Shown here piece after piece: positions 33,541 to 42,475 of a stretch of DNA of 64,000 nucleotides. Source of the stretch: an uncultured Flavobacteriaceae bacterium (GTDB lineage: Bacteria > Bacteroidota > Bacteroidia > Flavobacteriales > Flavobacteriaceae); assembly GCA_937959395.1 (NCBI GenBank), contig CALGLR010000037.1, positions 1 to 64,000 on the forward strand. Direction: 5' to 3'. The stretch's first letter is position 1. Each line of letters opens with the position of its first letter. The notes below the pieces were generated by a model that saw only the letters and a program-made list of their open reading frames with translations, was not told the DNA's origin and made no database searches. Made by a program: the position numbers and the translations under genes.

Positions 33541-33590
33541 CTCACCCTCCTAGAATAATAAATTCACACAATTACATTAATATTTTATAC

Positions 33591-33690
33591 AAAAAAGGCT
33601 ATTTCTTGCGAAATAGCCTAGGTTAGTTTAGTAGTAGTTGAATGTTTCTTTTTAGGGACTAGCACAGTTTACTTTATGTTTCATTCATTT
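33591..33690 (-). ncRNA. putative ~100 nt small RNA or leader-peptide gene, copy 1
   Basis: On the minus strand, TTG (33723-33721), an exact 18-nt spacer and TACTTTTG (33702-33695) form a complete Bacteroidota promoter. Transcription should start near 33689. The RNA would be mostly unstructured and A/C-rich (with ACTACTACTAAACTAACC) and end in the hairpin AGGCTATTTC/GAAATAGCCT followed by TTTTTT. A 10-codon open frame (33684-33652, MKHKVNCASP) is unchanged in copy 2, so a leader peptide is possible, but its leader would be only ~5 nt. Not a family I can name. Confidence 0.6.
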
Positions 33691-33694
33691 ACTA

Positions 33695-33723
33695 CAAAAG
33701 TAAATATTCAAACTTAGTAGCAA
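33695..33723 (-). promoter_or_regulatory. promoter TTG-N18-TACTTTTG of small RNA copy 1
   Basis: A perfect match to the Bacteroidota sigma-70-type consensus (TTG, 17-19 nt, TAnnTTTG) in minus orientation. It is the best-formed promoter I find in the window. Upstream of it (33724-33776) the repeat keeps GATTTATTTGC and TTTAATCGG. Confidence 0.75.
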
Positions 33724-34065
33724 GATAATCAAATTCTGTTAAGACGCAAATAAATCCGATTAAAAGTCGTTGAAATACTTAAAAAACATAGTATAATCGA
33801 TTAAATACATATTAATACGATTAAAGAATAAGTGAGATTTATGATATTTTAATGATTTTAACATCTTATCTTATCTAAAAATTGTACAATTTCTATAAAT
33901 CTATCTTCTATATCTATTTGCAAATTTAAAAGACTTTAAATTTTATTTTACTTCTTTTTAAGGTTTATAGTTAAGAAGACACCTCACTAGGAAATGAAAC
34001 AAAAGACTATAAAAAAGAAACACTCAAAAACTCAATTAAGTAAATAATCTATTATTAGCTAAGTA

Positions 34066-34251
34066 ATACCATTTCGCATTTGAAATGACCGTAATTAAAC
34101 GTTCTTTTTTACTTTCTATTTTATTAAAAAAAGAAAACTTAACTGTACTTCTACTTCACTCAGTATAGTTAGCTATGTCTTATTTATGTAATTCATATAA
34201 AGAAAAAAGTAATTATTTTCTTTTACATTAATTTCAAACAAGAATTGTTAT
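34066..34251. mobile_element. MITE-like inverted-repeat element, copy 2
   Basis: A 186 bp non-coding element in opposite orientation to copy 1 at 30261-30422. The left end begins ATACCATTTCGCATTTGAAA and continues with the shared ACGTTCTTTTTTACTTTCT block. The right end (TTTCAAACAAGAATTGTTAT) has drifted from the other arm. It sits exactly between the two small-RNA units. Confidence 0.65.
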
Positions 34252-34281
34252 AAACTATCCATTTGATTAATGTTTTTTTAC

Positions 34282-34382
34282 AAAAAAAGGCCATTTCTTA
34301 CGAGATGGCCTAGGTTAGTTTAGTAGTAGTTGAATGTTTCTTTTTAGGGACTAGCACAGTTTACTTTATGTTTCATTCATTT
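34282..34382 (-). ncRNA. putative ~100 nt small RNA or leader-peptide gene, copy 2
   Basis: Same layout as copy 1: TTG (34415-34413), 18 nt, then TACTTTCG (34394-34387; one change from the consensus). The transcript would run from about 34381 to the hairpin AGGCCATCTC/GAAATGGCCT and TTTTTTT. One stem pair is exchanged T:A to C:G against copy 1, so pairing is kept; another position is a mismatch on this strand. The 10-codon frame MKHKVNCASP (34376-34344) is identical. Confidence 0.55.
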
Positions 34383-34386
34383 ACTA

Positions 34387-34415
34387 CGAAAGTAAATATT
34401 CAAACTTAATACCAA
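34387..34415 (-). promoter_or_regulatory. promoter TTG-N18-TACTTTCG of small RNA copy 2
   Basis: TTG and the 18-nt spacer are kept; the -7 element has one substitution (TTTG to TTCG), so this copy may be weaker than copy 1. Confidence 0.6.
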
Positions 34416-34530
34416 GATAATCAAATTCTGATAAAATGCAAATAAATCCGATAAAAAGTTATAAACAAATCGTTTAAACACTATTTTGTCGATAAAAAAC
34501 ATATAATGCCGATTAAATAAAATAAGTGCT

Positions 34531-35079
34531 TTATGAGAATTTCGAGTTTCTACCCACTATTCCTTTATAAAAATCACGTATTTTCTTAAAGTCTGCTTCT
34601 ATATCATTGGTTGGATAAAAAGGCTCAGAAATAGTGTTTAGTTTGTTTTTGAAATCAAAAGTGAACATAATGATTGGAACATTAGCTTCTTTGGCTATAT
34701 AATAGAAACCTGTTTTCCATTTCTCGACTTTTTTTCGAGTTCCTTCTGGAGATAAGGACAATCTAAATTCTTTTTTATCTTTAAATAATTTTGCTATGGC
34801 TTCTACTTTGTTCTGGCTAGAAGTTCTATCAATTGGCACACCTCCTACTGCTTTAAAATAGAGTCCTAAAGGCCAAACAAACAAGTCTTTTTTACCTATA
34901 AAATTGGTTTTAACTCTCGTAATTTTTCTAATAAATAATGCTACAATAAAATCTAAATTACTAGTATGTGGAGCTCCTATTATAATGGCTTTCTTAATTG
35001 TATCTTGGGAGAAATTTGTATTTCCAACAATTTTCCAACCCCAAATTTTAATGTAGATTAACTTAGCTAGCCAACGCAT
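34531..35079 (-). CDS. 1-acyl-sn-glycerol-3-phosphate acyltransferase-like protein
   Basis: A 182 aa PlsC-family acyltransferase. The HxxxxD motif is in GAPHTSNLDFIVAL (about residue 37), and the second block is SLSPEGTRKK. It lacks a long hydrophobic N-terminus and is shorter than classical PlsC (about 240 aa), so it may act on lipids other than lysophosphatidate. It starts 1 bp after the KdnB-like gene ends and is likely co-transcribed with it. Confidence 0.85.
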   Translation of the reverse strand: MRWLAKLIYIKIWGWKIVGNTNFSQDTIKKAIIIGAPHTSNLDFIVALFIRKITRVKTNFIGKKDLFVWPLGLYFKAVGGVPIDRTSSQNKVEAIAKLFKDKKEFRLSLSPEGTRKKVEKWKTGFYYIAKEANVPIIMFTFDFKNKLNTISEPFYPTNDIEADFKKIRDFYKGIVGRNSKFS

Positions 35080-42152: not shown

Positions 42153-42160
42153 ATAAAAAA

Positions 42161-42470
42161 GCAGATCTATAAGCCGGATTTTGTACTCTTACAAGCCCTT
42201 ATCATTTATCTACGACTATTGTTACCAATAGCCTCTAGCTGCCTACCCTCTAGTCTCGCGCGTGTACGCTCAAACACTAGTTTACATGACATTGCACCGC
42301 ATAGAGTTTACCTGGTTTCACTACAGCATTACCTGTACGTACTTTCTGTTGCACTTTTCCTAATCTTACAACTGGTGGCTGTTAACCACTATGCTTACAC
42401 TATGGTGTCCGGACTTTCCTCTTAAATGCTAAAAATAAATTCAACATAAAAGCGATAAGGCGATCTGCTT
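42161..42470 (-). ncRNA. rnpB: RNase P RNA, bacterial type A
   Basis: About 310 nt. The minus strand contains GAGGAAAGTCCGGAC, the near-universal P4 5' half (42425-42411 region), and GTAGATAAATGATAAGG in the 3' part with GAGTACAAAATCCGGCTTAT. The ends GCAGATCGCC and GGCTTATAGATCTGC can pair as P1. This RNA is the catalytic subunit of RNase P, which trims tRNA 5' ends. Exact ends are estimated from the P1 pairing. The 42219-42425 plus-strand open frame is a shadow of it. Confidence 0.95.
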
Positions 42471-42475
42471 GGGTG

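Follow-up and report, generated by a model that had tools for sequence, protein, structure and literature searches.

A structured small RNA with a near-invariant internal loop in Flavobacteriaceae genomes and viral contigs

Results

Two copies of one transcription unit

The window, a stretch of 64,000 nucleotides from an uncultured Flavobacteriaceae bacterium, carries two minus-strand copies of one compact transcription unit, preceded by a gene for an acyltransferase of 182 aa (Table 1). A direct repeat of about 195 bp, with its copies about 690 bp apart, had been described at this locus, and it was readily recovered: copy 2 (34274-34459) is a 93% match, along ~186 bp, to the 195 bp block that holds copy 1 (E 2.8e-74), and the spacing is 692 bp. 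The 68-nt elements at the centre of the two copies differ only in their first base. Each copy is predicted to give an RNA of ~106 nt with a helix (P1) at its 5′ end, a 13/13-nt internal loop, a hairpin (P2) and a terminator; promoter, transcription start and terminator are predictions in both cases. Several finer details of the original prediction were also seen in the sequence, namely a terminator hairpin with a T-run in both copies, a T:A to C:G exchange within the terminator stem, one change in the TACTTTTG/TACTTTCG octamer of copy 2, and a 10-codon frame (MKHKVNCASP) that is the same in both.

Table 1. Positions of the two units and of neighbouring features in the window
Feature	Position	Strand	Basis or remark
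Copy 1 RNA element	33629..33696	-	CM match 73.9 bits, E 1.8e-12
Copy 1 P1, 5′ strand; 3′ strand	33682-33693; 33633-33644	-	CM, MFE fold, covariation
Copy 1 loop strands AAACAUAAAGUAA; CCCUAAAAAGAAA	33669-33681; 33645-33657	-	CM, MFE fold, covariation
Copy 1 hairpin P2	33658-33668	-	CM, MFE fold, covariation
Copy 1 intrinsic terminator, GGCUAUUUCGCAAGAAAUAGCC + U6	33591..33618	-	sequence, fold
Copy 1 degenerate sigma-54-like promoter, TTGCTACTAAGTTTGAA	33707..33723	-	GG doublet lost; predicted +1 at 33696
TACTTTTG octamer, originally proposed as -7 box	33695..33702	-	no conservation outside the genus
Copy 1 upstream TAATCG boxes	33757..33823	-	+ strand CGATTA at 33757-33762, 33798-33803, 33818-33823
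Copy 2 RNA element	34321..34388	-	CM match 72.4 bits, E 4.0e-12
Copy 2 P1, 5′ strand; 3′ strand	34374-34385; 34325-34336	-	CM, MFE fold
Copy 2 loop strands	34361-34373; 34337-34349	-	CM, MFE fold
Copy 2 hairpin P2	34350-34360	-	CM, MFE fold
Copy 2 intrinsic terminator, GGCCAUCUCGUAAGAAAUGGCC + U7	34282..34310	-	sequence, fold
Copy 2 sigma-54-like promoter, TTGGTATTAAGTTTGAA	34399..34415	-	aligned with TTGGCAY-N4-TTTG of homologues; predicted +1 at 34388, the element's first base
Copy 2 equivalent upstream boxes	34449..34515	-	CGATAA 34449-34454, CGATAA 34490-34495, CGATTA 34510-34515
Copy 2 upstream weaker box, CGTTTA	34471-34476		read from sequence
Acyltransferase gene, 182 aa, upstream of the copies	34531..35079	-	
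Bacterial RNase P class A RNA gene	42154-42471	-	Rfam match

Distribution in the family

The reading of the repeat as a duplicated compact non-coding unit with its own promoter and terminator proved right, and the unit is conserved outside the repeat. Five copies are present in the same genome on four contigs, three of them besides the window pair. By blastn, 23 of 99 relatives gave a match, nearly all confined to the core. The covariance model search that had been suggested across Flavobacteriaceae, a large family with members in the sea and in soil, found the element in 160 of 397 sampled family genomes (~40%), with 1 to 5 copies each; named genera with matches include Winogradskyella, Psychroserpens, Algibacter, Lacinutrix, Lutibacter, Aquimarina and Tenacibaculum. 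Samples of the order and of the phylum gave 5 matching genomes of 148 and 5 of 198, respectively, with every match inside Flavobacteriaceae and none outside the family. No copy was found among the genomes listed for one large genus that is rich in complete genomes (g152, probably Flavobacterium). More than half of the sampled family genomes have no detectable copy, so that over long evolutionary times the RNA is dispensable.

At the gathering threshold of Rfam 15 the window yields RNase P only, with no match on the element; a permissive scan of six loci gave nothing convincing there, and the letters of the motif did not occur in the literature searched. The statement that no named family fits was thus borne out, and the element represents a real new structured sRNA family that is not in Rfam 15.

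Two covarying helices around a conserved loop

As shown by side-by-side comparison of homologues, the consensus is GAAACATAAAGTAA, followed by 6 to 30 variable nt and CTAAAAAGAAACA, with flanking arms that pair. The element consists of helix P1, a nearly invariant, purine-rich 13/13-nt internal loop (AAACAUAAAGUAA / CNCUAAAAAGAAA) and the small, variable hairpin P2. Alignment of 31 copies supported P1 (9 pairs) and P2 (4 pairs), with the 13-nt loop strands in between. Standard pairs occupied 83.3% of cells in this alignment, compared with 63.7% after shuffling and 31-35% when the partner was slid by 1-3 columns. The covariation score was 0.490 vs. 0.163 for shuffled alignments, and none of 500 shuffles reached it. 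RNAalifold, unprompted, returned identical P1 and P2 helices from the 31 copies.

Covariation was likewise scored in 112 bacterial copies (0.550 vs. 0.189), in 67 copies including viral ones (0.611 vs. 0.207) and in 41 lower-scoring covariance model matches (0.557 vs. 0.191). Taking the four alignments together, 83-86% of cells were paired, as opposed to 62-64% in shuffles and 28-44% in slid controls, with 0 of 500 shuffles reaching the score. The 112- and 67-copy sets include exact-core matches from a pattern scan, so that conservation of the loop is there by construction. No core was fixed in the covariance model search that gave the 41 matches; GAAACATAAAGTAA was exact in 32 of them, and the remainder had one change or a shifted alignment. 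G-U pairs are retained in the helices of the 112-copy set. Minimum free energy folding of the window RNAs alone produced P1, P2 and the 13x13 loop, with z-scores of -4.60 (copy 1) and -3.38 (copy 2). A structured RNA family is well supported by these data.

The loop strands themselves may be partly ordered. Pairs C19-G57 and U21-A55, in symmetric register, are possible, with variation too slight for covariation. Two loci (L262:401-468 and L251:401-468) carry a rare double variant of the loop, ACATACAG with UAAAGAG; its change of A55 to G would preserve a U21-G pair, which hints at a symmetric non-canonical helix inside the loop.

Among copies of the sigma-54 class described below, nothing 3′ of P1 is conserved in sequence beyond base composition and the terminator. 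The element is on this ground the functional part of the RNA, and a second conserved seed is lacking.

Promoters and upstream boxes

The promoter first proposed for the window copies, TTG-N18-TACTTTTG, did not hold up in homologues: TAnnTTTG occurs in just 3 of 101 copies with a sigma-54-type box, two of which belong to the same genus. The conserved sequence is instead TTGGCAY-N4-TTTG, which scores at least 10 of 11 upstream of 88 of the 173 bacterial copies, compared with 0.64% of background stretches. The start predicted from it falls at the 5′ edge of P1, which mostly begins near +2. In the 101 sigma-54-type boxes, TTG is present in all and GG is retained in 99, while the C at -12 is often A or T. 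A -24/-12 element of the GG-N10-GC type is thus present in the homologue consensus; in the window, copy 2 keeps the GG (TTGGTATTAAGTTTG; its same-genus orthologue reads TTGGCATTAAGTTTG), whereas copy 1 has GC (TTGCTACTAAGTTTG). Because of this loss, copy 1 may be weak or may depend on another promoter. Sigma-A was ruled out as the conserved promoter of the window class, the box originally proposed being confined to its own genus. Across homologues the overall pattern was the opposite of promoters and terminators decaying between conserved flanks, the damaged promoter of copy 1 being the exception.

The -24/-12 pattern of sigma-54 corresponds to motif SM4 in Flavobacterium psychrophilum (PMC9723704). 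An RpoN match was found in the genome of the window (E 2.2e-51) and in 394 of 397 family genomes; being nearly universal, RpoN is uninformative as a cause of the patchy distribution of the element.

Judged by eye, the sequence upstream of other copies is ECF-like (GTGACTTT...TGTGTCTTA) or sigma-A-like (TATCTTTG). From the ECF-like sequences of some copies, paralogues seem to rely on different sigma factors. Seven loci (L031, L127, L155, L170, L234, L242 and L244) have the ECF-like form GTGACTTTTT...TGTGTCTTA/TAATAA.

Farther upstream, both window copies, like other loci of the same genus, have TWATCG boxes at about -80, -100, -121 and -141 relative to the core. Fourteen boxes in six same-genus upstream regions follow a period of 20.5 bp, a regularity matched by 0 of 2000 random sets, although the test is flattered by orthologous loci that are not independent. 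Judged from the sequences, the boxes are probably sites of one shared activator. They also occur at L003, L004, L006 and L007, alongside sigma-54-like and other promoters alike.

Genomic setting of bacterial and viral copies

The commonest site of bacterial copies is that seen in the window, with an acyltransferase homologue preceding 76 of 173 on the same strand at a median distance of 61 nt; nearly all of these copies have a sigma-54-type box. A terminator was detected for 111 of the 173, and the next gene lies on the opposite strand for 132. Frequent terminators and mostly opposed downstream genes indicate that, as a rule, the bacterial copies are predicted solo RNAs. In Tenacibaculum (L136, L126, L166, L131 and L097), two to four copies stand in tandem at distances of several hundred bases, with two of the copies at L131 separated by about 190 bases. 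In most of these arrays a TATCTTTG box stands right before each element, and several arrays lie beside a gene for a protein of ~250 aa.

A pattern scan, the only means by which viral copies were found, located the element in 32 IMG/VR contigs; blastn against phage and plasmid records gave no match. Where a downstream gene was detected it was on the same strand in every case (22 of 24 copies), and in several copies an ATG follows ~25-40 nt 3′ of the element. Some copies lie just past the large terminase gene and others ahead of a replication-module operon. A TAnnTTG box was present upstream in 14 of 22 viral copies examined, mostly 10-13 nt from the core. In eight viral contigs (L190, L193, L200, L202, L208, L211, L213 and L214) the element is closely followed by a common tRNA-like stretch, GAGATAGTGTAACAGGCAGCACAATTT; ARAGORN found no tRNA beside the viral copies.

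Discussion

Several functions could account for a small RNA of this kind. The original prediction offered two, a leader peptide gene and a trans-acting RNA with an unstructured A/C-rich seed. If MKHKVNCASP were a leader peptide or micropeptide, its frame should have been kept. An ATG does stand at this place in 146 of 173 bacterial copies, as in both window copies, but the other 27 have GTG, CTG or TTG, with the change compensated across P1. Insert lengths are spread over all three frames (66/56/51), the 173 copies would encode 152 different peptides, and the RNA terminates with no gene to regulate, so that the conserved start and frame followed by a regulated gene that mark a leader-peptide attenuator are not seen. 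A peptide gene is contradicted by these counts, and we consider it hardly credible. It is only a little less improbable, in our judgement, that the element is a mobile or DNA-level repeat (a palindromic element, a recombination site or a phage-derived relic) and no functional RNA. Tandem arrays in Tenacibaculum and the presence in viral contigs are what such a repeat might show; against it stand the orthologous site beside the acyltransferase gene, occupied in many genera, the consistent orientation with promoters before and terminators after, the G-U pairs kept in the helices, and the lack of conserved flanks by which a transposition unit would be recognized.

Pairing with mRNAs through the loop strand(s) or through ACTACTACTAAACTAACC deserves more weight, since small size, an own promoter, a terminator and stress-type promoters are typical of base-pairing sRNAs and since the conserved loop is predicted to be unpaired in folds of the window RNAs. 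In F. psychrophilum, moreover, Rfp18, a conserved sRNA, was tested for pairing with targets that had been predicted for it (PMC9723704). The proposed seed ACTACTACTAAACTAACC turned out not to be unstructured, as it contains the P1 3′ strand, and its conservation stops at the genus. Target prediction with this seed, which had been suggested as a check, gave no excess of complements at start codons, and for either loop strand as well as the seed there was none at 820 gene starts from many genomes, in what is a weak test. In 60 relatives, the genome of the window among them, Hfq was not found, and the controls were positive. Base pairing is weakened by the absence of Hfq from these relatives together with the lack of complements, though Hfq-independent pairing exists; a seed would also not need as many as 26 conserved positions, spread over the two loop strands and enclosed by two covarying helices. 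We therefore regard a pairing sRNA as unlikely, if still a serious candidate. A ligand-binding, riboswitch-like aptamer, with the loop binding a small molecule and the terminator serving as the switch, is more doubtful. With its almost invariant internal loop between two helices, the element does resemble a small aptamer, and the viral copies lie in 5′ leaders, where a riboswitch is possible. The usual gene on the opposite strand, however, leaves a bacterial copy nothing to switch, linker and terminator sequences are unconserved, with no conserved alternative pairing evident, and the aptamer, expression platform and gene of a riboswitch are thus not found together in bacterial copies.

The explanation we favor, at about an even chance of being correct, is that a single conserved partner acting in trans, most likely a protein, binds the RNA at its internal loop. 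A single partner is suggested because the loop is near-invariant, lies between covarying helices and is reused under different promoters with nothing else conserved, and the recurrence of this loop in viral leaders as well as in solo sRNAs and tandem arrays argues for a shared recognition site. The sRNAs of the host, transcribed with envelope or stress sigma factors, would bind and titrate this partner, following a CsrB- or 6S-like logic, and phage leaders would carry the site in cis and so recruit, or answer to, the same partner.

Known RNAs offer partial parallels. CsrB/CsrC and RsmY/RsmZ are decoy sRNAs, and CsrB-type decoys usually hold many sites in the form of GGA hairpin loops. Like them, the element occurs as solo sRNAs with several paralogues per genome and with stress or regulatory promoters, and its motif is found in leaders as well, namely in viral contigs ahead of same-strand genes. 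It differs in having one element per transcript, with a single large internal-loop motif in place of many GGA loops. Qrr, GlmY/GlmZ and CrcZ are sigma-54-dependent sRNAs and share with it a sigma-54-type promoter, an intrinsic terminator and multiple copies, but they come from another bacterial phylum and have another structure, and the element is without an Rfam match. HK022 put is a phage leader element that acts on transcription, and the viral copies resemble it as structured elements at the start of phage transcripts, whereas the host copies run into a terminator ~35 nt later and are unfit for antitermination. With 6S RNA, which binds a global protein, the element shares the order of helix, large internal loop and helix; it is much shorter and has another loop sequence, and a separate 6S RNA is reported in F. 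psychrophilum (PMC9723704). Rfp36 and Rfp18 come from the same bacterial family, and Rfp36 is an sRNA behind a sigma-54 promoter (PMC9723704), as is predicted for many copies of the element. Identity with either is unlikely, as judged from the lack of copies in the genomes listed for g152, the probable Flavobacterium.

Partner binding by the loop could be taken further, to an RNA module shared by host and phage in which one RNA-binding factor of a lineage without Hfq is either held by host RNAs acting as decoys or hijacked by phages; we put this forward tentatively and think it improbable as a whole. Post-transcriptional regulation is little known in Flavobacteriaceae, and the near-invariant loop could serve as bait to identify what acts through it, be it an RNA-binding protein or another factor.
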